Below, one piece after another: positions 1 through 43,615 of a DNA stretch of 64,000 nt (the stretch's first letter is position 1; each line of letters starts with the position of its first letter). The DNA comes from Antedon mediterranea (taxonomy: Eukaryota > Echinodermata > Crinoidea > Comatulida > Antedonidae), in assembly GCF_964355755.1 (NCBI RefSeq), contig NC_092673.1, positions 33,799,648-33,863,647 on the forward strand, in the 5' to 3' direction. Under the pieces are notes generated by a model, which was not told the origin of the DNA, made no database searches, and was given only the letters and a program-made list of their open reading frames with translations. A program made the translations under genes and the position numbers.

Positions 1-3000
1 CTGCTATTATAAATCACAAGACAAATAAATACAAAATGATTGGTTTACCTTGGTTACTTCGACACTTTCTTGTCTGAATTCAGTAAGTTTGTCGATGGAC
101 GCACGCAAGTACTTCTTCTCATTTTCTGTACCAATCACATAGTTTCCTGCTGTAGAGCGTTGCCTAAGAGATTTTAACTCTCGACTAAACAGCTCCATCT
201 TTAAAAATAAAATATAAAAATGGTGATATAAGTAAGTATTATACTTTACTGTTTAAAGCCCAACCATCTGAATTCTTTTTTTATTTTCTTTCGTTTGTCA
301 TTAAATTATTTTAAAAAAATTCACATACATAAGAAATGTCACATGCATGACAAAAATTATAAGAAAAATAGTTGTATAAATAATTCCGAAAAAAAGTCCT
401 AATACTGTCTTCCTTCTTGATTACCTCTTCTTTAATTTTTGCTGAGAAAACTGATTGCAATTTTTCAGATCCTGGACTTGTTTGAGTTGTCTGTAGGGTC
501 TCTGTAGCTGCTCCCTGCTTAATATTTGTAGCTTGTACAACACTGGGTTTAGTAGGTTGTGGTGTGGTTACAACAGGAACAGTGAATTGAGATACAGGTG
601 TAGCTGGTGCTGCATGATCTTGTGGTGTACTGAATGCCTTAGCCCGGGTCTGCTGGACTCCAAGTTGAGGAACAGTCTTAGCTCGAGCTCCCTGACCTGG
701 AATGGATGCTACTTCTGCCACAGGCTTGATGACATTGACGGAAGCACCGGATTGTGTCTGTAAGCCTAATGGTGAGAATAATGAATAACAGGTTAAAATC
801 ATGAATTAAATAGATGAGATAATAAGAACTGTTAAACTCAACCATTGGTGTCAGGCAAGTTAAATATGATATGAAGTTACCTACCTGGAGCAGTAGGTTT
901 TGTGAGTTGGCCAAAACTAGTTGACTCGGAACCTGCAGCAGATATAAATGAGAATCCAGTTGGCTTCGTTGCTGGTTGTGAGAAAGCGGATACTGGTTCT
1001 GCCTGTGGTGGGGGCTTAGGTGCAGAGAAGGAGAATGATGATGAAGCACCAGAGAGAGAGAATGTTGATTGGCTTATGGCTGCAGATTGAGCTCCAGCAG
1101 TCTGTAACTGAGTGGTTACTGCTGGTGGTGTAAAGGCACCTTTGGACTGACTAGAGAACATACTTCCAGGGTTTGAAACTGGAGGTGTAGAACCAGCTAA
1201 TGAGACATTGCTTGATGACGTGGTTGACTTGGGAGCAAAAGAGAATGGACTGCTAGAAGATGCTGTTGATGATTGTCCAAATGAAAATCCTGTCATTCCA
1301 GTTGCTTGCGGATGCCCAGAGGCTGGGGCTGTCTTTGAAGTGAAAGAAAATCCACCAGAATTACTACCAGATGGTTGACCAAATGGCACGCTTGTTGGCT
1401 TTGCACCAAATGATAAACCTGCAGCAGAGGTTGCAGTAGGAGTGGTAAAAGAGAAGCTGGCAACAGGAGCTGTAGATGAACTCATGCTCTGGATAGATGC
1501 TGTATTTGGTACACTTGTCTGTGCATGACCACCTCCAATGGAAGAAGCACTTTGAATTTGTTTAGAAGCTACTGAAGCTGGCATACTTGGAACCACAGCA
1601 TCACCTCCTCCAGAACCTTTCAGAAAACCAAAACAGGTCAAAAATTTAAAAAGGGATGTCATAGAAGTAAATAGTATTGCCTGAAATCTCATGAAATTCA
1701 AAGTGATCTTAAACAAAGGCCATAGATGTTTAAGATAAAATAATACAAGGGTAACTTTTTCATGTAACTAAGTCCAAAAGGTTGTCATTTACAAACCATG
1801 TGAAAACACAATTAATTAGTCACGTTCCCAATTGAGCCCAATTTTTCATAATAGACTTTTCTCATAACTTACCTGATGGTTGTCTTTGACCTGGTGGAAA
1901 AGCTACAGGAGGTGCGGTTATAACTGGACATTCTGTGTCGTATAACATGTAAAACGGGCAGAGTTTACCCTCTGTTGACAAAGTGATGACTATTGGAGCA
2001 GGTCGCCCACCTAAACCAAAAAGAATAATACTAGAAAATCAAATGTTCTAGCCATTTTTTCAAGATGAGGTTCTTTAGAGAAAACGTTTTCAAGGTTTTG
2101 AGAGAGGCTGCTTTTAAAGATTAACCACATTGGCTCTCATTTAAAGATGAGCATTTCCGTTCTAATCACATTTGTTTTAATTTACATCAAAAGATGAGAG
2201 ACTAATGCTTATTGGCTCCTGTTAAAAACCTGCTTGAACTTCTGGTGATTTTTATGTTTTTGTTTTGAATCAGCTTCTTCTTAATTTTAGTTATTTATTG
2301 ACTAACCTGACTGATCTAATTCTGATGTCAGATCCAATGCTATTCCCAGTGGATATGTTTCTTTATTACTAACCTGACTGATATAATTCTGATGTCAGAT
2401 CCAATGCTATTCCTAGTGGATATGTTTCTTTACTGTAACTAACCTGACTGATCTAATTCTGATGTCAGATCTAATGCTATTCCTAGTGGATATGTTTCTT
2501 TACTGTAACTAACCTGACTGATCTAATTCTGATGTCAGATCTAATGCTATTCCTAGTGGATATGTTTCTTTATTGACTAACCTGACTGATCTAATTCTGA
2601 TGTCAGATCCAATGCTATTCCTAGTGGATATGTTTCTTTATTACTAACCTGACTGATATAATTCTGATGTCAGATCCAATGCTATTCCTAGTGGATATGT
2701 TTCTTTATTACTAACCTGACTGGTATAATTCTGATGTCAGATCCAATGCTATTCCTAGTGGATATGTTTCTTTATTGCTAACCTGACTGATCTAATTCCG
2801 ATGTCAGATCCAATGCTATTCCTAGTGGATATGTTTCTTTATTACTAACCTGACTGATATAATTCTGATGTCAGATCCAATGCTATTCCTAGTGGATATG
2901 TTTCTTTATTACTAACCTGACTGATCTAATTCTGATGTCAGATCTAATGCTATTCCTAGTGGATATGTTTCTTTATTACTAACCTGACTGATATAATTCT

Positions 3001-6000
3001 GATGTCAGATCCAATGCTATTCCTTGTGGATATGTTTCTTTATTACTAACCTGACTGATCTAATTCTGATGTCAGATCCAATGCTATTCCTAGTGGATAT
3101 GTTTCTTTATTGACTAACCTGACTGATATAATTCTGATGTCAGATCCAATGCTATTCCTAGTGGATATGTTTCTTTATTGACTAACCTGACTGATATAAT
3201 TCTGATGTCAGATCCAATGCTATTCCTAGTGGATATGTTTCTTTTTTACTGTAACTAACCTGATTGAACTAATTCTGATGTCAGATCCAATGCTATTCCT
3301 AGTGGATATGTTTCTTTATTGACTAACCTGACTGATCTAATTCTGATGTCAGATCCAATGCTATTCCTAGTGGATATGTTTCTGTATTGACTAACCTGAC
3401 TGATATAATTCTGATGTCAGATCTAATGCTATTCCTAGTGGATATGTTTCTTTTTTACTGTAACTAACCTGATTGAACTAATTCTGATGTCAGATCCAAT
3501 GCTATTCCTAGTGGATATGTTTCTGTATTGACTAACCTGACTGATTTAATTCTGATGTCAGATCTAATGCTATTCCTAGTGGATATGTTTCTGTATTGAC
3601 TAACCTGACTGATATAATTCTGATGTCAGATCTAATGCTATTCCTAGTGGATATGTTTCTTTTTTACTGTAACTAACCTGACTGATATAATTCTGATGTC
3701 AGATCCAATGCTATTCCTAGTGGATATGTTTCTGTATTGACTAACCTGACTGATATAATTCTGATGTCAGATCTAATGCTATTCCTAGTGGATATGTTTC
3801 TTTATTACTGTAACTAACCTGATTGAACTAAATCTGATGTCAGATCCAATGCTATTCCTACTAGTGGATATGTTTCTTTATTGATTAACCTGACTGATAT
3901 AATTCTGATGTCAGATCTAATGCTATTCCTAGTGGATATGTTTCTTTATTGACTAACCTGACTGATTTAATTCTGAAGTCAGATCCAATGCTATTCCTAG
4001 TGGATATGTATCATCGTTGTTAGCATTCAGCGGTAGTGTCAATCTAGCATTGTCATTCACGTTCCAAATCTCCCATTGGTTTGGATTTTTTTGTTGTTTC
4101 CCCATAAGACCCATGTCAGCTCCATTACTCTGCATTGCCAGCAATATTTCCCTGTAAAATTAACATGAAAGTAAGAGTTTAATCTTGCTAAATATCAGTA
4201 AAGTATTAAAAAGGACATTCTAATACTATAATATCAAATAATATCAAACTTACCATTTATCAATATACTTGAGGTAGTATTGGCCTTTTCGTTCTCCTTC
4301 ACCCATGCAAATATCCTCAAAATTGTTAAACATTGGATCTCCATCTTTCTACATATAAAATAGAGATTTAATAGCAAGAATCAGGCAAAATATAAATACA
4401 TGTTTTTGTTAAGAATAGAGTAATACTTAATTTACTTAACTTCACACATTGGATGGTTTTGAATTTCTAAAGCGCAAAAAAAAAAGTTTTTAAGTGCTCC
4501 GACAACAAGTGAAAAAGATCAAGGAAAAAGTGAAAGTTCATGCCAGCTCTAAATCAAAGTATGGGGATACCACCTTGTCACTCACCAGAGTTTAACTAAT
4601 AAACTGTGGTTAGCACCAGTTGGCAGTCTTCTATCCTATTAACGGTTTATATAAATAAACATGAAAAACTGACAAAATAGTTTTTGTCCTTACCGGTGCT
4701 GAGACAGTAACAACATTTGGTTGTAGACGACCATCAGTATCGGCATATGCCGCAATAAACTTGTAAGTTGACAGCCAACAAACATCAACAACTAGAAGAA
4801 ATTTAGAAATGCGTCTTTAACCACTGAGACAACATGAATTTATGAATAAAATTACTAAAATGTTTTACAGTAACTAAATTTTACCTGTAACTCTATCAAA
4901 TGAAATGTATATGGCTTTTGAATACAGTATGTCTCACTGTAATTCAGCTATCTCTATTTTACCTGTAACTCTATCATCAAATGTATAAGGCTTTTGAATA
5001 CAGTATGTCTCACTGTAATTTAGCTATCTCTATTTTACCTGTAACTCTATCATCAAATGTATAAGGCTTTTGAATGCTATACTTTGTAATGTTTATATTT
5101 TCGCACCGCGGCTCTAGCCAGCTATGTCCCAGGAGGACACATTCATTAATAAGCTGTTTCATAGCGGTAGCTTAGTATCTAAGGCTGACAGTTTTGTGAA
5201 TTTGGAAACTCGACTATAATTTATAGGTAGCTGCTGGACCCAAAAAACGTCTGGGAGAAGAGAGTCTATATGAAAGCCTTTGCTGATAATACAGTATTAT
5301 TGAGATGTAGACGGAAATCTGTAAAATCTTGATCAATAAATAATAACTTCGTTTTTGCTGTGAACCAGGTCGGTATTATAATAAGTCACTGTCAAATAAT
5401 CATTCGATAATGGTCAAAACTTTATTTTGGCTCTGTCAACATAAAGGGAGGTATTTACAATGACTTTCTTTTGACTGTCAATCTAGGCCAATGTTATAAT
5501 AATACGCCGTCAGATATTAAATCATTGAAACAGTCCTCGTAAATTTGTTGTTGGTTATCAGATGCCGTGGGGGGTCCAATCAATTATCGTCAGAAGGTGA
5601 ACAATCAGTCTAGGTAGCAGCAGCAGATTATTAGGAACGCCTGCTCCATTAATTAATCCAGAAAAAGGTTTGTACATTATCTATTTGTTTATTAGCCTTC
5701 TCCTAACACAATTATATTTTCTTTAAAAAAAAGGTTTTATAAGTGGTTTCAACATTTATGATAGTAATGTCACAGTTCTGTGTCTGGACGCAAGTTCATA
5801 GACCTACTAGTTATATTATTCATATTAACTGATACTTACTCTTCATTTACCGTAAAGTTCATTTTTAATGAAATATATAATATAAATTGGCTTCGTAACA
5901 ATTAATTAGTGTTGAAAAGGTTAGTTTTTTGGTGATAGGTGAAAATGACATGTAACTTCGTAATCAATTTATTTTTTTGTATAAAGGCCCAATTACACTA

Positions 6001-9000
6001 TGACGATAACGACGGACGATAAATATATAGCATGCATTTTTTTTACATAAACCAAAAGAAATTAGAAAGGTTTTCGTTCTAGACCTATAGGATAATCATT
6101 TATGCTGTCTTTGATAAAAATAATGTTTTTCAAATTCCAATCAAATGACGTCATGATAAATAAAAACAATAAAATCGCTGTATTGTCACGATATTATTGG
6201 TTTTACTAATCATGACGTCATTTGATTGGACGTGTGAAAATATAATTTTCATCAAAGGAATTGTTTATTTTTCTTTTGGTTTATGTATTAAAAATGCACA
6301 TTTGTCTATTTATCGTCGATCGTTATCGTCCTAGTGTATGGGCCTTATGCTGTAAATGTTCAATTAATTGATCATTCCGATTTTATTAGTTGGACTCTTG
6401 CACAGTTGCTGTCTAATCGTTGTTGTGTAATATCATTTCGAACCATATTAAAATCATAAAGAGATTCATATACCTTAACATGTGGCTGTGCATGGAAGTC
6501 TGGTCTACACAAACTCGGACCCGAGAGTCTAAATAAATACTTTCATTTAAAATGTAAAATAAGACTGCAAAATTGGGCTTATCAACAAATAAATACTTTC
6601 GTTCAAAATTTAAAATAAGACTGCACAATTGGGCTTATCAACAAATAAAATACTTTTTTTTCAAAATGTAAAATTAAGACTGGAAAATTGGGCTTATAAA
6701 CAAATAAATACTTTTTTTCAAAATTTAAAATTAAGATTGGAAAATTGGGCTTATAAACAAATAAATACTTCCGTTCAAAATGTAAGAAAACATTTTTTAA
6801 ATATAATCCTTAAGCTCTATCTATACTATCAAACTAAATATGATGTGCTCATATTATATAGACATGACGATGTCATATCACTACGATAATCGGGCATATC
6901 ACTACCATATTTGGGCACATCACACTTTTTTTGTTAAACTAGTTGGGACAGTGTAGACACAGAACTATGTGATCGAAACATTAGTCGGAATTGGACTGAC
7001 GCGATTGATTTAATTGGGTATTTTTATTAATGTAATGATTCATTAAAAACTATAATACCGATACGCGTTTGGTATTGAGCAATGGTGCAAAAAACCCTGA
7101 GAAATAATGTTATAACGCGATTTGGTGATAGCTTAGCAATAATACAACCCATATACTGTACTATTATTATAAATACCTATTACAAATCCATTCATATAAC
7201 TTTTCATCGCGAACCGAAAATGTATAAATGTTATTCTACAGACAGTAATTATATATTCAAAAGCCATATTATTATTATTATCAATACCTAAATGCGATAG
7301 TAATAACCACATACATTATTCCCAATACAAGTTTGTGCGTTTAATTCTAGAAAGAAACGACTGTGCTGACAGGCCAATGACATAAATCACAAGTAAAGTC
7401 CCAATTGTTCACTTGCGTTTTGATTGGCCGACCTATTATATTAGATTAATGAAGACTGTTCTTACAACTGTCCAGTCAAAAAGTTACGCGGCGTTTTTTG
7501 TAAGAAATATTTCTTGTTTATTTTAGATTGTAAAGGATCCCAATGGAAATAAGCTGATAAGCTTTTTGAGCTATCCTGGAAAGTCTTTTATAAATGTATT
7601 ATTTGTAATGTCCGTAATTTATGTTATCGCTTTGTATGTATTTTTTATGATGATTTTCCAAATAAATTCAATTCAATTCAATTCAATACAGTATGTCTCA
7701 CTGTAATTCAGCTATCTCTATTTTACCTGTAACTCTATCATGAGATGTATAAGGCTTTTGAATACAGTATGTCTCACTGTAATTTAGCTATCTCTATTTT
7801 ACCTGTAACTCTATCATCAAATGTATAAGGCTTTTGAATACGTCTCTTCTCAGTAAGTTGTAGATCATACTGTACCAGGCTACCATCTCCTTTACCAACA
7901 ACCAGTTGTTTACCTTTAGGGCTCCAGCACACTTTAAACAAAAATTAAGTTAAAAGTCTATTAAAAATATTCAGAAGGAATCTGAGTAAAGGTATTATAA
8001 AATGGTCTTTCTGCTTGAAATGCTGACACCCAACCATTAGACCACCAATGCTAAACAATACTAGTTCTTAATTGTTAATGTGTAAATACATAGATTGAAA
8101 TTAGCTTACTGGCTCTAGAATCATTATCCTTCTGTATCTTAGCAACTACTCTCACTCCAGCAGATGTTTCACACAGAATTAAGCTGCCATCTGACAGACA
8201 AGTAGCAAGAACCGTCAAATTTGTTGGATTCCAGCAAAGTTCAGTGACCCAGACGTCTGACCCCTGACTCAAAATCTGTGTAGACAATGCTTTAGCATTT
8301 GTACCCTATGGAGACAAAAGAGACATGGTATAGATTGTCTTACAACACACCATGTCCTTGTCATTTGATTGGATTGTTGGCCATATGATGTTAAATAACT
8401 GTACTATCGCACTCGTAATAATGTCATCGAGAGTGCAATTCCGTTATATGCGTGCAAGTACTGCAAATTTATTCTATTTTCATCTTTCACCAAAATATTC
8501 ATTATTTGTATATTATTTTCTATGGAAGGGTAAATACAGATTCCAAACATTTAAAAGGAACTTTACTGATGTTTTGTTTTGAAGTATAAACAATGAAGTT
8601 GAAATTGTCTTAAAGAGAGAGTTAAGCACTGACTTAATGGTGAAATGGTCAGCTTTTATGAGGTTTCTTGTTTAAAATTATTCTTTCTGTGGAATCTGGT
8701 ACATGAGGCTCACATAAACAGGTTCCACAACTTGTCTGCCACTATGGAAAATAGGATTCTCACCAGTGTTCTGTGTGCACCAGGGTAGTTGCATATAACA
8801 TGTGATAACTTACCAATTGGATCAATGACCTGACATCATAAAGGGCAATAATGAGGGCAGCATCCTTCTTATAGCAAACAGCAAGAGTGAGGTTATCTGC
8901 ACTAAGAGCAAGATGATGTGGCATGTAGCCAAGTTGTACATCAACATGGGGGTAGTCTGTCACTGTAGAATGATTGAACCAATTCTATTATTTTAACATG

Positions 9001-10368
9001 GGGGTAGTCTGTCACTGTAGAATGATTGAACCAATTCTATTATTTTAACATGGGGGTAGTCTGTCACTGTAAATGATCAAAACAATTCTATTATTTTAAC
9101 ATGGGGGTAGTCTGTCACTGTAGAATGATTGAACCAATTCTATTATTTTAACATGGGGGTAGTCTGTCACTGTAAATGATCAAAACAATTCTATTATTTT
9201 AACATGGGGGTAGTCTGTCACTGTAGAATGATTGAACCAATTCTATTATTTTAACATGGGGGTAGTCTGTCACTGTAAATGAGCAAAACAATTCTATTAT
9301 TCTTTTGTTGGTATTTTTAGCATTTACATAAAATTAGAATTTACACAAAATTAGCAAGACGTGATGGAAAATATTGGTTGTTCACACACCAGCTTAGCGT
9401 TGTCTTAAACCAAGACAGTGGTAGGCATCTTGTTTTGGTTACTCGGACACACCGGCTTAATTCATAAATGAATGAATTCTTTTTAAGTTTCTAAAAGCTA
9501 AATTATTAATTGATATTTTCAATCTAATTTTACCAGTTTCTTTCGATTTGTCAACTGTACTATTCAATCGAGTTAATTCTGCTGTTTTCACAATTTTCAA
9601 TCCTATATGAGGATAAAAAAAATAATTTGTAAACAAGATTTGATTAAAGATGAATTGTTTTAAATTGATTTACATTTTAACTGCTAATGTAAATCTTAAT
9701 GATGATACAATGGCACACAGCCAATAGCCCCAGTTGATTGGTTATAAACTCCTAAACTAATAACAAATTATCTTTTAAATCAATTCTAAAAATATAGTGT
9801 AATTTTGTTGGAACACTTTGTGATCCCCTGTTCTGCATCAACCTCTAGTTGAAGCTAATATCACTGTAAGGTATTCTGTATCAACCTCTACACTACACAA
9901 ATTAAATATATTGCAGATATAATAATTATTGTTACAATGTACTTTACCTTTGTTGTATCCAATGTAAAGGTAGCCATATTTGTTGCAAGCAACCACAATA
10001 TTATATCGTTCACTTGGAATAGCATCATCTACGTTAGTATTAAATATCTGCAATTTACACATCTCCTTAAATTTCAGATCCTATAATAAAACAAATTCAG
10101 ATTAAAATATTACATCAGATAATTGTAAATACATATCTGTACAGAACTTGGCAATTGAGAGTTTGTCTTGATCTGGATTTGGGGAAGAAACTCAGGTTTA
10201 CATTAGCATATACAGTATGTACAAAACAGGAAATTCAATAGTGCATTTAAATCTGTGATTGCATCTCAGATTTAAATTAAATCCAACAATGTTTAGAATA
10301 TCTTTGATAGGGGCCTACTAAATAATAAATTCAGATTTACTCACTTCAACTAAACGTTCTTCATCCAT
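1..10368 (-). CDS. NUP214: Nucleoporin NUP214, spliced gene, 3' end off the window
   Basis: NUP214 sits on the cytoplasmic face of the nuclear pore, where its N-terminal seven-bladed propeller binds the mRNA-export helicase DDX19/Dbp5. Its FG repeats bind transport receptors such as CRM1. Coding exons read from splice sites (5' to 3', minus strand): 10368-10345, 10080-9948, 8962-8814, 8305-8110, 7931-7803, 4791-4694, 4348-4254, 4151-3958, 2010-1873, 1616-885, 765-425, 198-49. Phases agree at every junction. The start is the ATG at 10368, giving MDEERLVE and then DLKFKEM. Propeller landmarks match the vertebrate family: [57 protein letters not shown] and [14 protein letters not shown]-type repeats and a coiled coil follow. 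The C-terminal FG region is off the left edge. Family identity is very secure; individual splice sites are predictions. Introns carry unusual arrays, annotated separately. Confidence 0.93.
49..198 (-). CDS. NUP214: NUP214 coiled-coil exon
   Basis: This exon follows an AAAG acceptor and encodes a charged helix starting [15 protein letters not shown] and ending ESVEVTK before a GTAAAC donor. It resembles the start of the vertebrate NUP214 coiled coil (the EELKDLRLRS-like segment), through which NUP214 assembles with NUP88 and NUP62. The internal ATG at 198 is in phase with the preceding exon, which ends in KIKEE, so it need not be a translation start. The rest of the coiled coil and the C-terminal FG domain are beyond the left edge. 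Confidence 0.85.
885..1616 (-). CDS. NUP214: NUP214 FG-repeat exon
   Basis: This 732-nt exon is rich in Ser, Thr, Ala, Pro and Gly, with spaced phenylalanine repeats such as [38 protein letters not shown] and FSFSAPKPP. This is typical of the unfolded FG region that binds transport receptors. It opens after an AAAG acceptor and closes at a CAG donor at 885 followed by GTAGGT. Both ends are phase 1, matching the neighbouring exons 2010-1873 and 765-425. The following exon (765-425) is a Pro/Thr/Gln-rich linker with few FG motifs. Confidence 0.9.
2284..3957 (-). repeat. Exon-edge minisatellite A in a NUP214 intron (about 25 units)
   Basis: About 25 tandem units of roughly 60-75 bp. Read on the minus strand, each unit contains the last ~55 nt of the NUP214 exon 4151-3958 (encoding [15 protein letters not shown]) plus its CAG|GTTAGT donor and a short A/T-rich spacer with AATAAAGAAAC. 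The array starts directly at the real donor (3958) and runs downstream into the intron. Units differ by a few substitutions and small indels in the spacer. Confidence 0.95.
3958..10368 (-). CDS. NUP214: NUP214 beta-propeller exons (N-terminal domain)
   Basis: Eight exons (10368-10345, 10080-9948, 8962-8814, 8305-8110, 7931-7803, 4791-4694, 4348-4254, 4151-3958) encode most of the N-terminal propeller. The exon at 2010-1873 adds [17 protein letters not shown], the last blade. Each junction has a GT donor and an AG acceptor, for example GTGAGT after 10345, GTAAGT after 8814 and GTAAGC after 8110. WD-like strands can be seen in each exon ([47 protein letters not shown]). The intron between 7803 and 4791 is over 3 kb, because a block of transposon-derived DNA was inserted into a tandem array derived from the exon end. 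Confidence 0.9.
4873..5075 (-). repeat. Exon-edge minisatellite B, distal part
   Basis: Three units of about 76 bp whose minus-strand sequence repeats the last ~36 nt of the NUP214 exon 7931-7803 (CAAAAGCCTTATACATTTGA and on to the donor ACAG|GTAAAA) with a 40-bp intronic spacer. The array continues at 7684-7802, next to the real exon. A 2.6-kb insertion separates the two parts. Confidence 0.9.
5982..6347. mobile_element. MITE with long terminal inverted repeats
   Basis: About 366 bp with imperfect inverted ends. The left end is TAAAGGCCCAATTACACTAT, then GACGATAACGACGGACGAT. The right end, in reverse complement, is TAAGGCCCATACACTAGGAC, then GATAACGATCGACGATAAAT. Inner arms (ACATAAACCAAAAGAAA, and ATCAAATGACGTCATGAT versus its complement) also pair. 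It has no coding capacity. The target duplication is unclear. Confidence 0.75.
6530..6790. repeat. 62-64 bp tandem repeat, 4 copies
   Basis: Four diverged copies of a unit containing ATAAATACTTT-C/T-GTTCAAAATTTAAAAT and ACTGCAAAATTGGGCTTA. The open frames across it come only from the repeat. Confidence 0.85.
7684..7802 (-). repeat. Exon-edge minisatellite B, part next to the exon
   Basis: One full and one partial ~76-bp unit lying between the real donor at 7803 and the inserted block. The unit is the same as at 4873-5075: exon end, GTAAAA donor and spacer. Confidence 0.88.
8995..9290 (-). repeat. Exon-edge minisatellite C (acceptor side)
   Basis: Six units of 51-52 bp directly upstream (in gene sense) of the NUP214 exon 8962-8814. 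Each unit contains the CTACAG or TTACAG acceptor and the first ~20 nt of the exon (TGACAGACTACCCCCATGTT), followed by an A/T-rich spacer. Two unit types, with GAATGATTGAACC or AAATGATCAAAAC spacers (plus strand), partly alternate. Confidence 0.93.
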
Positions 10369-21863: not shown

Positions 21864-24800
21864 CTAGTATAGGTCAAACCAATCACTAACACTGATCCAT
21901 TCTAATCTAGCAACTGATGTTTCATCTGTGATGTCTGAAAGGTCATTGCCCCAAAGATTCAGCATACCATTTTTCAATATTATTCCATTCCTTTCACATT
22001 CTTTCAGTACATACAAAATGATACCACCTGAAAGATTGCAATCTGCTAAATTGACATGTTCTAGATTGGGAGATAATTTTAATAAAAGAGCCAATTTCCT
22101 ACCAATTAAAGATAAGTCAAGCCGACTTAAATCCAACTTTTTCCAAGTAAATATCCTATCATGATCAAAACAGGCATCTATAAGACTATTTAGGTTATCA
22201 ACAGACAGACTGTAATCACACCAATCAAATGTGTCACAATCTCTATGAACCAAAAACCATAAAAGTGAAACACTATCAATATCTGAAAGATTGTTTACCT
22301 TCAAATTTAGCATGCCAGGTTTCAATACCACATTGTTTTGATCAAATACATCCAGTAATTCTATTATCATACTACCTGAGAGATGACAATTACTCATATC
22401 AAGAAGTTGTAGTTGTGGAGAAAATTTTAATAAACAAGCTAATTTTGATACTTTAATTGAAGCTAGGTTAATCCCACTTAAAATCAATGATCTCCATGTC
22501 AATATCCTACAATGTTCATTATAAGCATCTACAAGGCATTTTAGGTGATCAACTGACAGGCTATAATTACACCATACAAAAGTGTTTTGATTCATATAAA
22601 TTAGGTCCATCAACCTAAAAAGTGTAACACCATCAATATCTGAAAGATTGTTTCCTCTTAGATCAAGCATGCCAGGTTGCAATACCACATTGATTTTATC
22701 ACATTCATTCAATAAATCTTTTATAATACTACCAGAGAGATGGCAATTACTCATACCGAGTAGTTGTAGTTGTGGAGAAAATTTTAATAAACAAGCTAAT
22801 TTTGATCCTTCAATTGAAGTTAGGTTAATCTCACCCAAATTCAACAATTTCCATCTTAACTCTCTACCATGTCCATAACAGGCATCTACAAGGCATTTTA
22901 GGTGATCAACTGACAGGCTATAATTACGCCATACAAAAGTGTTTTGATTCATATAAATTAGTTCCACCAACCTAAAAAGTGTAACACCATCAATATCTGA
23001 AAGATTGTTTCCTTTCAGATCAAGCATGCCAGGTTTTAATTCAACATTGTTTTTATCACATTCATTCAATAAAGCTTTTATAATACTACCAGAGAGATGG
23101 CAATTACTCATACTGAGAAGTTGTAGTTGTGGAGAAAATTTTAATAAACAAGCCAATTTTGATCCTTCAATTGAAGCTAGGTTAATACCACTTAAAATAA
23201 ACGATCTCCATGTCAATATCCCACAATGTTCATGTTCATTATAGGCATCTACAAGACTTTTGAGGTGATCAACTGACAGGCTATAATTACACCATACAAA
23301 AGTGTTTTGATTCATATAAATTAGTTCCACCAACTTAAAAAGTGAAACACCATCAATATCTGAAAGATTATTTCCTATTAGATCAAACATGCCAGGTTTT
23401 AATACAATATTGTTTTTATCACATTCATTCAATAAATCTTTTATAATACTACCAGAGAGATGGCAATTACTCATACCGAGAAGTTGTAGTTGCGGAGAAA
23501 ATTTTAATAAACAAGCCAATTTTGATCCTTCAATTGAAGCTAGGTCAATCCCACTTAAAATGAACGATCTCCATGTCAATATCCCACAATGTTCATGTTC
23601 ATTATAGGCATCTACAAGACTTTTGAGGTGATCAACTGACAGGCAATAATTACACCATACAAAAGTGTTTTGATTCATATAAATTAGTTCCACCAACCTA
23701 AAAAGTGAAACACCATCAATATCTGAAAGATTGTTTCCTATTAGATCAAACATGCCATTTTTTAATACCATATTGTTTTTATCACATTCATTCAATAAAT
23801 CTTTTATAATACTACCAGAGAGATGGCAATTACTCATACCAAGAAGTTGTAGTTGTGGAGAAAATTTTAATAAACAAACCAATTTTGATCCTTCAATTGA
23901 AGCTAGGTTAATACCACTTAAAATCAACAATCTCCATGTCAATATCCTACAATGTTCATTATAGGCATCTACAAGACTTTTGAGGTGATCAACTGACAGG
24001 CTATAATTACACCATACAAAAGTGTTTTGATTCATATAAATTAGTTCCACCAACTTAAAAAGTGAAACACCATCAATATCTGAAAGATTGTTTCCTATTA
24101 GATCAAACATGCCAGGTTTTAATACAATATTGTTTTTATCACATTCATTCAATAAATCTTTTATAATACTACCAGAGAGATGGCAATTACTCATACCGAG
24201 AAGTTGTAGTTGCGGAGAAAATTTTAATAAACAAGCCAATTTTGATCCTTCAATTGAAGCTAGGTCAATCCCACTTAAAATGAAAGATCTCCATGTCAAT
24301 ATCCCACAATGTTCATGTTCATTATAGGCATTTACAAGACTTTTGAGGTGATCAACTGACAGGCAATAATTACACCATACAAAAGTGTTTTGATTCATAT
24401 AAATTAGTTCAACCAACCTAAAAAGTGAAACACCATCAATATCTGAAAGATTGTTTCCTATTAGATCAAACATGCCAGGTTTTAATACCATATTGTTTTT
24501 ATCACATTCATTCAATAAATCTTTTATAATACTACCAGAGAGATGGCAATTACTCATACCGAGAAGTTGTAGTTGTGGAGAAAATTTTAATAAACAAGCC
24601 AATTTTGATCCTTCAATTGAAGCTAGGTTAATACCACTTAAAATCAACAATCTCCATGTCAATATCCTACAATGTTCATTACAGGCATCTACAAGACTTT
24701 TGAGGTGATCAACTGACAGGCTATAATTACACCATACAAAAGTGTTTTGATTCATATAAATTAGTTCCACCAACCTAAAAAGTGAAACACCATCAATATC

Positions 24801-27800
24801 TGAAAGATTGTTTCCTATTAGATCAAACCTGCCAGGTTTTAATACCATATTGTTTTTATCACATTCATTCAATAAATCTTTTATAATACTACCAGAGAGA
24901 TGGCAATTACTCATACCGAGAAGTTGTAGTTGTGGAGAAAATTTTAATAAACAAGACAATTTTGATCCTTCAATTGAAGCTAGGTTAATACCACTTAAAA
25001 TCAACAATCTCCATGTCAATATCCTACAATGTTCATTACAGGCATCTACAAGACTTTTGAGGTGATCAACTGACAGGCTATAATTACACCATACAAAAGT
25101 GTTTTGATTCATATAAATTAGTTCCACCAACCTAAAAAGTGAAACACCATCAATATCTGAAAGATTGTTTCCCTTCAGATCAAGCATGCCAGGTTTTAAT
25201 TCAACATTGTTTTTATCACATTCATTCAATAAATCTTTTATAATACTACCAGAGAGATAGCAATTACTCATACCGAGAAGTTGTAGTTGTGGAGAAATTT
25301 TTAATAAACAAGCTAATTTTGATCCTTCAATTGAAGCTAGGTTAATCCCACTTAAATTCAACCTTCTCCATGTCAATATCCTATTATGTTCATTACACAT
25401 GTCTACAAGACTTTTCAGTTTATCAACTGACAGGCAATAAGACCAATTAACAATGTAATCATCCAAACAATTTAGAAACACTAAACGAAAAACTGTATCT
25501 CCATCAGTATCTGAAAGATTGTTTCCCTTTAGAACAAGCATGCCAGGTTTCAACACTACATTGTTGTTATCACATTCATTCAATAAATCTTTTATTATAC
25601 TACCAGAGAGATGGCAATTACTCATACCGAGAAGTTGTAGTTTTGGAGAAATTTTAAATAAACAACGTAATTTTGATCCTTCAATTGAAGACATATTAAT
25701 CCCACTTAAATACAACCATTTCCATGTCAATATCCTATCATGTGCACAACATATATCTATAAGACCTATTAGGTTATCAACTGATAGGTTATAATCAGTC
25801 AATGTGAAATAAGCCTTGTCATTATCAGCTAGATTCACCAACTTAGAAAGTGTAACACCATCAATATCTGAAAGATTGTTTCCATTTAGACCAAGCATGC
25901 CAGGTTTCAACACAACATTGTTTTTATCACATTCATTCAATAAATCTTTTATAATAGTACCTGAGAGATGGCAATTACTCATATCAAGATGTTCTAGTTG
26001 TGGAGAGAATTTCAATAAACAAGCTAATTTTGATCCTTCAATTGAAGATAAGTCAAGCCCACTTAAATTCATTTTTTTCAATGTCAATAGCATACCATGT
26101 TGATCCCATGTATCTAAAAGACGTTTGATGTTATCAACTGACAGACTATAACCACACCACCATTCAGGGTAATAGCAATCAATACAAGTAAAATTTACCA
26201 ACCTAAGAAGTGTAACCCCATCAACATCCGAAAGATTGTTTCCCTTGAGGTCAAACATGCCAGGTTCCAATACCACATTGTTTTTATCACATTTATTCAA
26301 TAAATCTTTTATAATACTACCGGAGAGATGACAATTACTCATGTTAAGAAATTGTAGTTGTGGAGAGAATTTCAATAAACAAGCCAATTTTGATCCTTCC
26401 ATTGAAGCTAAGTTAATCCCACTTAAACTAATTTTTTCCCATGTCATTATCCTACTATGTTTACAACACTCATAAAGACTTCTTAGATTATCAACTGACA
26501 GGTTATAATCACACCATTCAAAAGTGTTATTATCCATATAAGCTAGATTTATCAACTTAAAAAGTGTAACCCCATCAATATCTGAAAGATTGTTTCCCTT
26601 TAGATCAAGCATGCCAGGTTTCAATACCACATTGTTTTTATTGCATTCGTTCAATAAATCGTTTATAATACTACCAGAGATATGACAATTCGTCATATCA
26701 AGATGTTGTAGTTGTGGAGAAAATTTTAATAACAAACCTAATTTTGATACTTCAATTGAATTGAGGTTAAGTTCACTTAAACGCAATATTTTCAATGTCA
26801 ACATCTTATCATCATCTAAATAATCATTTAAATGATTAAGATAAAGATTAAAATTTAAACTGCGAAGTTTAAAATTCAGTATGTTCAGGTTTGGTGAATA
26901 TTTTAATAAATGAATTAGGAATTTAGGACTCACTGACTTGTCAACTGTTAAATATGTGAACTCAGTGTATTGAAGTTGAAATGTGTCCATTAAAGTTGAT
27001 AGGATATCAATCTCACTGACTTCCAGGAAGGAATGCAAGGTAAATTCATACAAGGTACTACCACAAGAATGTGTGATTATAAAAAAATGAACTAACATAG
27101 CACATAAATTGGTTGGTTTAGTGGCTGATTGCTTAATATGTGAAAGCCAATCTTCAACAATATCAAAAAAACCATAATAAGATAAAATGCAAACGCTCAT
27201 AGCATTTATCAAAAATCCTACATTCTTTGTTCTTTCATCAAACATAAATCCATATCTCCTACTATATAGCAAGACAATATCACTATATGACTGGGTCATT
27301 TCTGCCAATGTTTCTTTAAGTACTTCATCACTTGATATTTTTTCTTCTAATTCTTCTATTACAGAATGTTTATGTTCTTCCTTTACATAATTGAAATACT
27401 TTGCTAGTGAATACAAGTTGGAAGCTTTCACTTTCAGCCAATGTTTCATAAATCTACCAGCACCAGCACCTAGGAATCCTATAGTGAATACGATTGTCAT
27501 ATGTAGATATTTATTAGATATTATCATGTCACACTCCTCTTCCGTCATATCACCCAACTTACACTTCTCAGCAAGGTAAAACCCAGCTAATGCCTCTGAA
27601 ACTAGCTTGTGTGGTGGCGAAAACATCTCATTTTTATCACTTTTATCAACAGATGGATTTTTGTAAACAAATCCAATTTTGAGTGCCAACTCCACTATTG
27701 ATTTATCAAACATATTTGTAAACTCATACTTGTCAATTATCAATTTATTTGTTTTTAGTCCTTCATAGATCCATTGACCTAATGCTAGTATTGCAGTTTT

Positions 27801-32624: not shown

Positions 32625-34200
32625 TTTCTAGTTTAAATACATTAAAATAACTACAATTACGTTATCATTACTTGGAGCAATTCAATCAGTAATATATATT
32701 ATTGGAATTTAAATATTTGATAAAGTTGAAAATAATAAGGACCACTTCCAACCATACAGTACTATATTGTATTTTACCATGTTGTATTTACATTACTATA
32801 TATTTGATACATGAATCAATACAAAAATATGTATCAATTTATAGTTATAGCATTTAAGGAAATTATTATAGATAACCAAATGGTGGTTAATTCGTATTAT
32901 ACATTTTTGGTATTTTAGTAATAAGAGAGTGAAATATATGTACAGTATGATGTGGCATTTTACTCTTAAATATCGTATGATTATCAACAAAATTAATTTC
33001 TCAGCCATGAATCTTGAATACAAACTTTTGTGTTGCTATCAGTCAACCTATAATAGTAAACGTTTGATAGTACAGTATTAAGAAACTCGTCAAGCATGAT
33101 ATAACAAAATAAGTATGAGGTGCCAAATATGTAAAAACAAATTGTAGTATGGCACTACAAAAAAATAAGTATGAAGTGGTAAATATTATTTTAAAAAAAA
33201 AGTATAATGGCAAATGGCACTACAATAAAATAATTAAACAGCTATTTCATTTTTCAATGTTTTCATTTCATTGTCTGATATGTAAACATGTTTGAAGCGA
33301 TTGCAGTTAAATTGTATACAAATAAGGAATGTTTATGAGTTAAAAATTAAATGGGGAGAATATCTTTTTTTCTACTTTAATGATGCTGAGCAGATATTAT
33401 TCAATACTCTTATCTGAGCTATTACAAGTATATTTCAATTACTATTCTTTGAAGTTGAATTATACAATAAAACTATCAATATGATATTCTTTAAAAAGGA
33501 AAACATATTTGTTAAATGAAATAACTGATTTCCATTTAAAATTGTATTATTTTGAGGGCCTATAGCAAGTAAATCGGCTTCCCGTGTCTCTTATACGTAT
33601 TACCTATTGTCAGCATACCATATTTATAGCATTTATTATATTTTAAAACGTGTATAGATATATGTAACTAATAAATACATAATGGCATTTTGTACTGGAA
33701 ATAAAACATTAATTATTTATCAGTCTAAACACCGACTTGCTTCTATTCCCTAAATAATTAAAAGTACAACTAAACCAAACATTTATTATTTACCAGCCTA
33801 AACACAGACTTCCTTCTATTCCCTAAATAATTAAAAGTACAACTACAGCAAATATTTATTTAATATGGTTAAAATAGACTTTACAACTTACCCTGTTTTT
33901 GTATTGGTTGACACTGAAGTTCTGAAAATAAAAAGATGGAATTCATATTATACAGAGGTTCTTTCTATTATAGCCTTTAATTAAATAAGACAAAATATAT
34001 TTTATAATAATAATCGTTATTTACCATTATTATTACGGTTGAGATATAATTAACTATTATTTTTATTTTATAACTGTTTGGCATTTTGGCATTTCTTTAA
34101 GTGTTTGATAAATTAAAATATCAATCAACACAAGGCACTCTTTCAGAATCATGCTTATAGAAAAAAACAATTAACAATAATAACATGTTGGAGACCAATA
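32625..34200. other. NLR1 upstream region, no clear gene
   Basis: A/T-rich. One splice-bounded 30-nt candidate exon lies on the minus strand at 33892-33921 (TATTTTCAG acceptor, GG|GTAAGT donor) and could be a 5' UTR or linker exon of NLR1. A near-duplicate segment, TTATTTACCAGCCTAAACAC, lies at 33715-33840. No long conserved frame is seen. Confidence 0.35.
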
Positions 34201-37200
34201 TTATAATTATACTGTGGTAGGTTGGAATGTTATAAACTGATAGGTTGGTGTGCTGACATACAAACACTAATAACATGTTGGAGATCAATATTAATCATTA
34301 TACTGTGTTAGGTTGGAATGTTGTAAACTGATAGGTTGGTGTGCTGACATACAGACACTAATAACATGTTGGAGATCAATATTAATCATTATACTGTGTT
34401 AGGTTGGAATGTTGTAAACTGATGGGTTGGTGTGCTGACATACAAACACTAATAACATGTTGGAGATCAATATTAATCATTATACTGTGGTAGGTTGGAA
34501 TGTTATAAACTGATAGGTTGGTGTACTGACATACAAAAACTAATAACATGTTGGAGATCAATATTAATCATTATACTGTGTTAGGTTGGAATGTTGTAAA
34601 CTGATGGGTTGGTGTGCTGACATACAAAAACTAATAACATGTTGGAGATCAATATTAATCATTATACTGTGGTAGGTTGGAATGTTGTAAACTGATAGGT
34701 TGGTGTGCTGACATACAAACACTAATAACATGCTGGAGATCAATATTAATCATTATACTGTGGTAGATTGGAATGTTATAAACTGATGGGTTGGTGTGCT
34801 GACATACAAACACTAATAACATGTTGGAGATCAATATTAATCATTATACTGTGTTAGGTTGGAATGTTGGAAACTAATGGGTTGGTGTACTGACATACAA
34901 ACACTAATAACATGTTGGAGACCAATATTAATCATTATACTGTGGTAGGTTGGAATGTTGTAAACTGATGGGTTGGTGTGCTGACATACAAACACTAATA
35001 ACATGTTGGAGATCAATATTAATCATTATACTGTGGTAGGTTGGAATGTTATAAACTGATAGGTTGGTGTGCTGACATACAAACACTAATAACATGTTGG
35101 AGATCAATATTAATCATTATACTGTGTTAGGTTGGAATGTTGGAATGTTGTAAACTGATGGGTTGGTGTACTGACATACAAACACTAATAACATGTTGGA
35201 GATCAATATTAATCATTATACTGTGTTAGGTTGGAATGTTGTAAACTGATGGGTTGGTGTGCTGACATACAAACACTAATAACATGTTGGAGACCAATAT
35301 TAATCATTATACTGTGTTAGGTTGGAATGTTATAAACTGATGGGTTGGTGTGCTGACATACAAACACTAATAACATGTTGGAGATCAATATTAATCATTA
35401 TACTGTGGTAGGTTGGAATGTTATAAACTGATAGGTTGGTGTGCTGACATACAAACACTAATAACATGTTGGAGATCAATATTAATCATTATACTGTGGT
35501 AGGTTGGAATGTTGTAAACTGATGGGTTGGTGTGCTGACATACAAACACTAATAACATGTTGGAGATCAATATTAATCATTATACTGTGTTAGGTTGGAA
35601 TGTTGTAAACTGATGGGTTGGTGTACTGACATACAAACACTAATAACATGTTGGAGATCAATATTAATCATTATACTGTGTTAGGTTGGAATGTTGTAAA
35701 CTGATGGGTTGGTGTGCTGACATACAAACACTAATAACATGTTGGAGACCAATATTAATCATTATACTGTGTTAGGTTGGAATGTTATAAACTGATGGGT
35801 TGGTGTGCTGACATACAAACACTAATAACATGTTGGAGATCAATATTAATGATTATACTGTGTTAGGTTGGAATGTTGGAATGTTGTAAACTGATGGGTT
35901 GGTGTACTGACATACAAACACTAATAACATGTTGGAGATCAATATTAATCATTATACTGTGTTAGGTTGGAATGTTGTAAACTGATGGGTTGGTGTACTG
36001 ACATACAAACACTAATAACATGTTGGAGATCAATATTAATCATTATACTGTGGTAGGTTGGAATGTTGTAAACTGATGGGTTGGTGTGCTGACATACAAA
36101 CACTAATAACATGTTGGAGATCAATATTAATCATTATACTGTGGTAGGTTGGAATGTTATAAACTGATAGGTTGGTGTACTGACATACAAAAACTAATAA
36201 CATGTTGGAGATCAATATTAATCATTATACTGTGTTAGGTTGGAATGTTGTAAACTGATGGGTTGGTGTGCTGACATACAAACACTAATAACATGTTGGA
36301 GATCAATATTAATCATTATACTGTGGTAGATTGGAATGTTATAAACTGATGGGTTGGTGTGCTGACATACAAACACTAATAACATGTTGGAGATCAATAT
36401 TAATCATTATACTGTGTTAGGTTGGAATGTTGGAATGTTGTAAACTGATGGGTTGGTGTACTGACATACAAACACTAATAACATGTTGGAGACCAATATT
36501 AATCATTATACTGTGTTAGGTTGGAATGTTGTAAACTGATGGGTTGGTGTGCTGACATACAAACACTAATAACATGTTGGAGATCAATATTAATCATTAT
36601 ACTGTGTTAGGTTGGAATGTTGTAAACTGATGGGTTGGTGTGCTGACATACAAACACTAATAACATGTTGGAGATCAATATTAATCATTATACTGTGGTA
36701 GGTTGGAATGTTGTAAACTGATGGGTTGGTGTGCTGACATACAAACACTAATAACATGTTGGAGATCAATATTAATCATTATACTGTGGTAGATTGGAAT
36801 GTTATAAACTGATGGGTTGGTGTGCTGACATACAAACACTAATAACATGTTGGAGATCAATATTAATCATTATACTGTGTTAGGTTGGAATGTTGTAAAC
36901 TGATGGGTTGGTGTACTGACATACAAACACTAATAACATGTTGGAGACCAATATTAATCATTATACTGTGTTAGGTTGGAATGTTGTAAACTGATGGGTT
37001 GGTGTGCTGACATACAAACACTAATAACATGTTGGAGATCAATATTAATCATTATACTGTGTTAGGTTGGAATGTTGTAAACTGATGGGTTGGTGTGCTG
37101 ACATACAAACACTAATAACATGTTGGAGATTAATATTAATCATTATACTGTGGTAGGTTGGAATGTTGTAAACTGATGGGTTGGTGTGCTGACATACAAA

Positions 37201-37575
37201 CACTAATAACATGTTGGAGACCAATATTAATCATTATACTGTGTAAGGTTGGAATGTTGTAAACTGATGGGTTGGTGTGCTGACATACAAACACTAATAA
37301 CATGTTGGAGACCAATATTAATCATTATACTGTGGTAGGTTGGAATGTTGTAAACTGATAGGTTGGTGTGCTGACATACGAACACTAATAACATGTGGGA
37401 GATCAATATTAATCATTATACTGTGGTAGGTTGGAATGTTATAAACTGATAGGTTGGTGTGCTGACATACAAACACTAATAACATGTTGGAGATCAATAT
37501 TAATCATTATACTGTGGTAGGTTGGAATGTTGTAAACTGATGTGTTGGTGTGCTGACATACAAACACTAATAACA
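34200..37575. repeat. 91-bp minisatellite, about 37 copies
   Basis: The unit contains AATAACATGTTGGAGATCAA, TATTAATCATTATACTGTG and GGTTGGAATGTTGTAAACTG, and ends with GCTGACATACAAACACT. Units are 90-100% identical. Three or more units carry an internal GTTGGAATGTTGGAATGTT duplication. The array ends abruptly in a LINE reverse transcriptase frame. Confidence 0.97.
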
Positions 37576-38604
37576 TTGGATCAGATTTGTCACCAGTTTT
37601 AAAAATAGGAGTTACTTTAGCTAGTTTAAGGGTGTCAGGAAAGGTGCCATTTACAAAACAAAGATTGAAAATGTAGCAGAGGGGTTCAGAAATAAAAGGG
37701 ATAAGTTGTTTAATAATAGACGGGTTAATATCATCAATGCCAGGTGCTTTACTATTTTTGAGGCGCATAACAATATCCATAATCTCATAAACAGTCACAG
37801 GATTGAGAAATAAAGAATTTGTGGATGGCGGAGGGAGGTAATCCTTAAAATTTGCATTAGATGTGTCTATATTTTTGGCGAGGGTAGGTCCAATATTAAC
37901 AACAAAATTATTAAAATGATTTGAAATTATGTTGGGATCCTCAGTTAAGTTTCCTTCGCAATTTTTTTGAATTGAAATATATATTTATACTGGGTAACCT
38001 CTTCAGTCAAAGACTGGTCTCCCAGAGGGCCCAGTTGGTGATCAGTGGCTGTGATGTACTAATACACCGGGGTAACCCCCTATTCGTCTCGAAAGATGTA
38101 CTAGGTTCTTTAAAGTGCACACGAGCTAGATGTGTACACTGGACCTACGGTTTATAGTCCTTATCCGAGAAGACTAGTTCTACCACCAGAACCATGGAGT
38201 GAGTGAGCCTCGAACCCCTGCCGATGTTATGGCTACGTAATTACGGTTCCACTGTCTTAACCACTCGGCCACTCACTCACTTAATTTATAGTGGACTCTT
38301 CAAAATGCTTACTTTCATTCGTTTTTATGAGACTATTTATAATTGTCCATGTTCCTTTGATATTATCTTTCTGCTGCTTAAACTTTTTTTCATAATAATC
38401 GCGTTTAGTTAATTTTATTAAAGAGTTAAGGGAGTTACGGAATTGCTTATATTCATTTATGTTTTTGTCATTCGGATAGCGGAGGGATTTGGAATACAGT
38501 TTTTGTTTATGCTTTATTGAATTTAAGAGTTCATCCGTCTTCCAGGTCTTAATTTTTTTTCCCTGCAGACTGCTCAGAACGTGAAACACTTTTCTTCCTT
38601 GCAT
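37566..38604 (-). pseudogene. LINE reverse transcriptase N-terminal fragment, split by a SINE
   Basis: The upstream half, 38604-38283, is TWKTDELLNSIKHKQKLYSK to IKGTWTIINSLIKTNESKHF. The downstream half, from about 37958, is NCEGNLTEDPNIISNHFNNF then the first RT motifs. The frame ends at KTGDKSDP (37576), where the 91-bp minisatellite begins. The catalytic core is absent. Confidence 0.85.
37978..38282 (-). mobile_element. tRNA-derived SINE inserted in the LINE
   Basis: Minus strand: a tRNA-like head with A box TGGCCGAGTGGTTAAG (38271-38256) and B box GGGGTTCGAGGCTC (about 38218-38205), spaced as in class II (Ser/Leu-like) tRNA genes. A ~200-bp unrelated body follows, containing ACTTTAAAGAACCTAGTAC, ending with an A/T-rich tail. 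The head also occurs at 63668-63726 and, more diverged, at 49505-49550. Confidence 0.78.
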
Positions 38605-41850: not shown

Positions 41851-43615
41851 GGGTGAAGTACAGTGGTTGTTACTGTGCATTTTCAGTCAACATATACTTG
41901 TGTTAATTGGGGCAGGGGGCTTGTAAATGAAGTACAGTGGCTGTTACTGTGCATTTTCAGTCAACATATACTTGTGTTATTTGGGGCAGGGGGTTGTAAA
42001 TGAAGTACAGTGGCTGTTAATGTGCATTTTCAGTCAACATATACTTGTGTTAATTGGGGCAGGGGGGTTGTAAATGAAGTAAAGTGGTTGTTACTGTGCA
42101 TTTTCAGTCAACATATACTTGTGTTAATTGGGGCAGGGGGGTTGTAAATGAAGTACAGTGGCTGTTACTGTGCATTTTCAGTCAACATATACTTGTGTTA
42201 ATTGGGGTAGGGGGGTTGTAAATGAAGTACAGTGGTTGTTATTGTGCATTTTCAGTCAATAGCATATACGTGTGTTAATTGGGGCAGGGGGGTTGTAAAT
42301 GAAGTACAGTGGTTGTTATTGTGCATTTTCAGTCAACATATACTTGTGTTAATTGGGGCAGGGGGGTTGTAAATGAAGTGCAGTGGCTGTTACTGTGCAT
42401 TTTCAGTCAACATATACTTGTGTTAATTGGGGTAGGGGGGTTGTAAATGAAGTACAGTGGTTGTTATTGTGCATTTTCAGTCAATAGCATATACGTGTGT
42501 TAATTGGGGCAGGGGGGTTGTAAATGAAGTACAGTGGTTGTTATTGTGCATTTTCAGTCAACATATACTTGTGTTAATTGGGGCAGGGGGGTTGTAAATG
42601 AAGTGCAGTGGCTGTTACTGTGCATTTTCAGTCAACATATACTTGTGTTAATTGGGGTAGGGGGGTTGTAAATGAAGTACAGTGGTTGTTATTGTGCATT
42701 TTCAGTCAATAGCATATACGTGTGTTAATTGGGGCAGGGGGGTTGTAAATGAAGTACAGTGGTTGTTATTGTGCATTTTCAGTCAACATATACTTGTGTT
42801 AATTGGTGTAGGGGGGTTGTAAATGAAGTAAAGTGGTTGTTACTGTGCATTTTCAGTCAATAGCATATACTTGTGTTAATTGGGGCAGGGGAGTTGTAGA
42901 TGAAGTACAGTGGTTATTAAATGTTACTGTGCATCTTCAGTCAATAGCATATACTTGTGTTAATTGGGGCAGGGGGGTTGTAAATGAAGTACAGTGGTTG
43001 TTACTGTGCATTTTCAGTCAATAGCATATACTTGTGTTAATTGGGGCAGGGGGTTGTAAATGAAGTACAGTGATTGTTACTGTGCATTTTCAGTCAATAG
43101 CATATACTTGTGTTAATTGGGGCAGGGGAGTTGTAGATGAAGTACAGTGGTTATTAAATGTTACTGTGCATCTTCAGTCAATAGCATATACTTGTGTTAA
43201 TTGGGGCAGGGGGGTTGTAAATGAAGTACAGTGGTTGTTACTGTGCATTTTCAGTCAATAGCATATACTTGTGTTAATTGGGGCAGGGGGTTGTAAATGA
43301 AGTACAGTGGTTGTTACTGTGCATTTTCAGTCAATAGCATATACTTGTGTTAATTGGGGCAGGGGGGTTGTAAATGAAGTACAGTGATTGTTACTGTGCA
43401 TTTTCAGTCAATAGCATATACTTGTGTTAATTGAGGCAGGGGGGTTGTAAATGAAGTACAGTGATTGTTACTGTGCATTTTCAGTCAATAGCATATACTT
43501 GTGTTAATTGGGGCAGGGGGTTGTAAATGAAGTACAGTGGTTGTTACTGTGCATTTTCAGTCAATAGCATATACTTGTGTTAATTGGGGCAGGGGGGTTG
43601 TAAATGAAGTATATT
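41850..43615. repeat. 74-77 bp G-rich minisatellite, about 23 copies
   Basis: The unit is TTAATTGGGGCAGGGGGGTT, GTAAATGAAGTACAGTGG, TTGTTACTGTGCATTTTCAG, then TCAACATATACTTGTG or TCAATAGCATATACTTGTG. Unit length alternates between 74 and 77 with the CAACAT/CAATAGCAT variant. Part of it (about 42190-42790) has a three-unit higher-order repeat. Each unit has two plus-strand G runs. Confidence 0.96.

Follow-up and report, generated by a model that had tools for sequence, protein, structure and literature searches.

A 25-unit minisatellite across the exon 8 donor of NUP214 in the crinoid Antedon mediterranea, probably a nearly neutral repeat

How is an exon joined correctly to the next one when its splice donor is followed by 24 near copies of itself? 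The question is raised by NUP214 of the crinoid Antedon mediterranea, the first ten exons of which lie on the minus strand of the window analyzed here, a stretch of 64,000 nucleotides from contig NC_092673.1 (positions 33,799,648 to 33,863,647). An earlier note, made from the sequence alone, had described an array repeating the end of a NUP214 exon together with its donor, and had offered three explanations: neutral slippage, a device controlling splicing noise or nonsense-mediated decay, or a source of length polymorphism. Neutral slippage is favored by the chance-level rate of such arrays in a sample of other genes, and the control device is unsupported. We put at roughly 85% the probability that the exon 8 array is a near-neutral minisatellite of the kind termed a "mirage" in lancelets, with the exon-proximal donor normally used.

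The host gene, as judged from its predicted product, is firmly assigned to NUP214, as had been proposed. Residues 1-385 match the NUP159/214 propeller (Pfam PF16755, E 6.8e-28), and the Nup214 chains in the PDB match the same product with a best E value of 5.5e-70, the alignment running unbroken across the exon 8/9 junction. The relevant features are given below, with a slash marking the exon-intron boundary in splice motifs.

885-10368, minus strand: NUP214 exons 1-10, a single open frame of 629 amino acids; the gene continues past the window.
10368-10345, 10080-9948, 8962-8814, 8305-8110 and 7931-7803, minus strand: exons 1-5 of the NUP214 model.
4791-4694, 4348-4254, 4151-3958, 2010-1873 and 1616-885, minus strand: exons 6-10 of the NUP214 model.
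3958-4151, minus strand: exon 8, 194 nt, its 3' end being the first array unit.
1873-2010, minus strand: exon 9; the acceptor ends at 2011, outside the exon 8 array.
2294-4009, minus strand: donor minisatellite of 25 units, each with the last 52 nt of exon 8, CAG/GTTAGT and a short intron tail.
2307-3890, minus strand: 24 decoy donors (last exon-like bases 3890 to 2307), each leading to a stop after residue 340.

Tandem arrays were located with Tandem Repeats Finder (TRF), and the unit boundaries were taken from a separate parse of the array in which the last unit was trimmed to 68 nt. For positions 2294-4009 TRF reports a single array with a period of 68, 25.0 copies, 92% matches and a score of 2832, and it also gives a 209-bp higher-order period. 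In light of this score and match level, chance is no explanation. The parse likewise yields 25 units, in keeping with the approximately 25 copies of the earlier note; the span given there, 2284-3958, was slightly off, and the exon-derived part, put at ~55 nt, measures 52 nt (4009-3958), although its description of the unit as exon end plus donor stands. In the gene direction the array begins within exon 8 at 4009. Each unit consists of a copy of the exon 8 end, then CAG/GT (present in 25/25 units), and then a short variable tail. The units are 67, 68, 70, 73 or 76 nt long in mixed order (n = 25) and vary by substitutions as well. As for homogenization of the edge unit, unit 1 lies at a mean distance of 0.094 from the others, inside the range over all units (0.073-0.140). 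The donors are near-identical, as had been claimed: the 9-mer CAGGTTAGT occurs in 23/25 units, with CAGGTTAAT and CAGGTTAGC in one each. The GT of the true donor is located at 3957-3956, the intron-side end of the array at 2294, and the start of exon 9 at 2010. The array accounts for 1651 extra nucleotides, such that intron 8, about 296 nt without the extra units, now measures 1947 nt; the intron upstream of exon 8 is 102 nt long.

The reading frame distinguishes the first donor from all others. When donor 1 is joined to exon 9 the frame is kept (QSG, followed by GRPAPIVI), and it is the sole frame-preserving donor of the array. Each of the 24 decoys joined to exon 9 gives a stop after residue 340 (NQSG, then stop), the TAG within GTTAGT being in frame. 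The immediate stop, and with it the importance of choosing the first donor, had been predicted in the earlier note. The calculated U1 pairing energy of the exon 8 donor, -7.9 kcal/mol, ranks seventh in strength among the 10 modeled NUP214 donors (-4.5 to -11.8). Given this rank and the identical 9-mer in 23 of the 25 units, donor strength alone cannot single out donor 1.

Mirages are minisatellite-like tandem duplications of exon-intron boundaries, described in lancelet Adh3 and in the globin genes BflGb6 and BflGb9 (PMC3087553), and further in lancelet troponin C and PGBD5 (PMC3902484). They occur at both exon ends, and reverse transcription PCR suggests regular splicing; two haplotypes of the BflGb6 mirage carry 6 and 3 units, and somatic instability is reported at the Adh3 mirage (PMC3087553). 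Length polymorphism of the NUP214 array, one of the options of the earlier note, is plausible in view of the two BflGb6 haplotypes. The NUP214 array is best placed in this class, in that its units span a real exon boundary and carry splice signals. As in the lancelet cases, the units contain an exon end, a splice signal and some intron, the real site lies at the edge of the array, the extra copies are intronic, and arrays are found at both 5' and 3' boundaries. The differences are the echinoderm host, the 25 units versus the 6 and 3 of BflGb6, and the occurrence of more than one array within a single gene. Human segmental duplications also contain exon-boundary tandem repeats, which may form novel introns (PMC2812944), and boundary repeats outside lancelets are thus not new as such. 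Like those repeats, the NUP214 array is a minisatellite at a gene's exon-intron boundary. The human examples, however, concern recent paralogues and novel introns, with the repeat often kept in some transcripts, and an array of many equal donors such as that of NUP214 is not seen in the consulted part of that report. Among the literature matches listed, one of them a sea-urchin repeat paper (PMC5103432), no echinoderm mirage was met in titles or in the openings of abstracts. The NUP214 array likely extends mirage minisatellites from lancelets to an echinoderm. It also allows the spliceosome's choice of site to be examined in a natural setting, with 25 near-identical donors and seven acceptors in one gene, only the exon-proximal ones giving protein.

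As to how the array grew, which donor is chosen and how nearly neutral the array is, we infer the following. A short tandem duplication would have happened to cover the exon 8 donor and would then have expanded to 25 units through slippage or unequal exchange. Provided that splicing starts from the exon-proximal donor, the extra copies would be intronic and removed with the intron, leaving the array close to neutral. The exon-proximal choice would be made through recognition across the exon (exon definition), intron 8 now being long (1947 nt). A mis-chosen donor would lead to a premature stop, and such transcripts would be expected to be cleared by nonsense-mediated decay.

The rate of exon-edge arrays was taken from 22 regions, 11 in nine myosin genes (96,009 bp) and 11 in as many dynein heavy-chain genes (108,811 bp; 204,820 bp in all), a subset of the loci found, picked before the repeats were viewed. 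Exon blocks were called by reciprocal tblastn among paralogues (62 + 169 = 231, with dispersed-repeat matches dropped); at least one of the 231 automatic blocks is itself an array copy, and any exon lacking a detected relative may have been overlooked. Many of the sampled genes (loci L020-L041) carry a short dispersed repeat, with an inner unit of 21 bp (CATATCACTACCATATTT...), which was removed from the exon calls. The 22 regions hold 27 non-overlapping minisatellites with a period of at least 25. Four of them span an automatically found exon edge, whereas random placement outside exon interiors predicts 4.4 (P(X>=4) = 0.67). With two exons recognized by eye the count becomes 6/27 (P(X>=6) = 0.27), a comparison that is not quite like for like since the expectation of 4.4 derives from the automatic exons only. 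These six arrays are as follows.

L030 (myosin): donor array, 83 bp x 2.3, automatic exon.
L031: donor array, 31 bp x 8, automatic exon.
L033 (dynein): donor array, 50 bp x 10, automatic exon.
L033 (dynein): acceptor array, 77 bp x 2.8, automatic exon.
L027 (myosin): donor array, 58 bp x 21, exon recognized by eye (HFAGAVCYQT).
L024: acceptor array, 150 bp x 3, exon recognized by eye.

The flanks of all 27 arrays were viewed, and beyond these six none was recognized at an exon edge. Rejected were arrays at L025 (296 and 7136), L029 (5690), L033 (9155), L034 (3466), L035 (8720) and L040 (8702), which lie near an exon and do not include the splice site. Over-representation of arrays at exon edges is unsupported in the sample (4 versus 4.4 expected), in which minisatellites show no clear preference for exon edges and no clear avoidance of them. 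The chance-level rate suggests that splice-site duplication is often tolerated, and it gives no sign of a device. Donors outnumber acceptors 4:2, too few to judge.

Two further observations concern L033. At 3667-4704 (gene direction) a 79-bp x 13 minisatellite directly follows the acceptor-like TTCTTCTAG, and no exon was recognized there. In the dynein acceptor array (6716-6930, gene direction) the unit includes AACCCTAACCCTAACCC, telomere-like filler sequence lying between units and a hint of the way in which the duplication was sealed.

A pattern search for donor pairs (CAGGTAAGT-N25-55-CAGGTAAGT) returned 99 matches (15 + 84) versus 40 (11 + 29) for the reversed control. The 99 matches represent 13 places, of which only L011 looks like a real exon end, with an open frame before the first donor, and the pattern was dropped as a rate estimate. 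L011 (gene direction, donor 1 at 1429) is a 6-copy, 55-bp donor array in an unnamed gene, the exon reading ...MDSFDVAVEYWENAIDSAPNPPQ.

Within NUP214 itself the exon 8 array is accompanied by others at exon edges, one of them at an acceptor; the earlier note mentioned neither these nor the existing name for such repeats.

8943-9301, minus strand: 7-copy acceptor minisatellite, 52 bp, of the exon 3 start (true start at 8962).
7685-7841, minus strand: proximal part of the exon 5 donor array, 2.1 x 76 bp, CAG/GTAAAA (true donor after 7803).
4878-5075, minus strand: distal part of the exon 5 donor array, 2.6 x 76 bp, ~2.6 kb from the proximal part.

In the exon 3 array only the last acceptor keeps the frame, the six decoy acceptors leading to a stop at residue 65 or 76. 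For the exon 5 array, each of the four decoy donors in its two parts leads to a stop after residue 219. Beyond the window, the following 9.9 kb of NUP214 (L006) contain a donor array of three 100-bp copies and, for the end of another exon, a two-copy duplication of 106 bp.

Use of the exon-proximal donor agrees with experiments on human minigenes: where exon definition applied and two donors were equal, splicing took place only from the upstream one. In the class of human exons preceded by a short intron and followed by a long one, the upstream preference is stronger still (PMC9225289). Exon 8, flanked by introns of 102 and 1947 nt, is now in this favorable class. Several points, however, weigh against a near-neutral array spliced from its first donor. 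Among all human alternative donor events ~60% use the downstream donor, and the upstream lean is found only with near-equal strengths and long introns, short introns leaning downstream (PMC9225289). The starting introns would have been short, namely about 296 nt after exon 8 and about 140 nt for dynein L033 without the extra units, and since human short introns lean downstream, toleration of the first duplication is left unexplained. It is from the reading frame alone that we infer first-donor use. The decoy donors display no decay, a condition that recent homogenization would give too. Lastly, in the window part of NUP214 four of the five arrays span an exon edge versus 1.0 of five expected (P(X>=4) = 0.007), or three of four when the split exon 5 array is counted once (P(X>=3) = 0.06), in a gene that had been picked for one of these arrays.

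The last of these points, together with the early stops reached from 24/24 exon 8, 6/6 exon 3 and 4/4 exon 5 decoys and the sharing of one donor 9-mer by 23 of 25 units, might be taken to indicate a poison-splicing device, by which the decoys send part of the NUP214 pre-mRNA into transcripts with premature stops and thereby adjust its level. Exon-edge arrays also occur in myosin and dynein genes at about the chance rate, however. When seven further donor arrays or duplications were read past donor 1, a stop preceded donor 2 in six, as is typical of out-of-frame intron sequence, and in L027 it came just beyond. The paralogous relic described below is without an exon 8 array, though that copy is broken. 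Selection on the decoys was considered as well. The exon-like part of the NUP214 units looked less variable than the tail (0.036 versus 0.26), but indels inflate the tail value; with equal-length units only (10/24) the figures for the exon 8 array are 0.030 and 0.066, and the myosin L027 array displays the opposite (0.025 versus 0.004). Because of the inflated tail and the contrary L027 values, this reading was not used. On balance a poison device is unlikely.

A self-correcting ladder would account for toleration, and we regard it as distinctly unlikely. The units end in GTCAG/GT, so that use of donor k would retain units 1 to k, along with donor 1 and an AG at the new junction. A second splice from donor 1 to the junction AG would restore the normal mRNA, and differences between unit 1 and unit k would stay out of the product. 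Were this so, exon-edge AG/GT duplications would be tolerated even in short introns, and hence not depleted, and a route would exist for introns to lengthen.

It is very unlikely that the array represents a step in intron growth or creation, in which exon-edge AG/GT duplications supply splice sites for new or longer introns. The array has indeed lengthened intron 8, from about 296 nt to 1947 nt, and the model has been published for the lancelet globins (PMC3087553) and the human repeats (PMC2812944). The exon-like part ends in AG in six of the nine donor arrays or duplications (exon 8, exon 5, L031, L033, the L006 2-copy duplication and L011), but not in L027, L030 or the 3-copy array of L006. 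Intron gain through tandem duplication of an AGGT-containing exon segment is known, for example, from potato RdRp (PMC4974935), and in NUP214, too, an AG/GT junction has been copied by tandem duplication. Unlike those introns, the duplication here is at the exon edge and the acceptor lies outside the array (2011 versus 2294), and thus no new intron has been made by it. Finally, an assembly artefact, with one or two real units inflated by mis-assembly, is extremely unlikely: the array length rests on a single assembly, but the units differ in substitutions and in length in mixed order, and arrays with distinct units of their own occur at other sampled places.

When exon 8 with its first donor was searched against the genome (354 Mb, 18 contigs), 26 matches were returned, 25 of which fall in the exon and array of origin. 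The 26th, at C4:35636806-35636964, displays 79% identity and lies 1.83 Mb from NUP214. Introner-like dispersal of near-identical copies was thus not found beyond this one relic match, in a search that skips very common words. The copy at C4:35636806-35637892 (L002, L005) is a broken, partial NUP214; in the surrounding 9.9 kb, similarity to the gene in the window is limited to part of exon 8, the donor array of exon 5 and part of the 5' region. Its exon 8 end is single, with part of the exon missing, and its exon 5 donor unit (~67 bp) is present in 7.8 copies versus 2.1 + 2.6 in NUP214. Array size therefore differs between the two at exons 5 and 8, in a comparison with a non-working relic rather than between alleles.

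Additional features were observed in the window and the genome. By eye, tandem 357-bp units at 22261-26781 and 60681-61430 of the window (12.6 and 2.1 copies) appear to encode leucine-rich repeats on the minus strand. Two long minisatellites are located at 34173-37576 (91 bp x 37) and 41854-43611 (74-77 bp x 23). At C3:19618101-25122537, 19 matches, all to almost one and the same part of the myosin head (profile about 342-408), extend over ~5.5 Mb and represent a large local expansion. In L022, adjoining versions of one myosin exon (6555-6705 and 6735-6828; EAFGNAKT.RNDNSSRF) are possibly mutually exclusive exons. Three features of the genome point to an echinoderm. There is one match to Bindin, which is not known outside echinoderms (E 2.3e-28, with one TAA inside the matched stretch; the 14 control genomes of this search were non-animal). 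Two tektins are nearest to chains of the sea-urchin entry PDB 8snb, with 396 and 411 bits versus 217 and 289 bits, respectively, for the next chains; a dynein stretch compared with the PDB did not separate taxa, and COX1 gave no match. Unlike that of lancelets (near 0.41), the GC content is 0.33-0.34 in the genome stretches examined.

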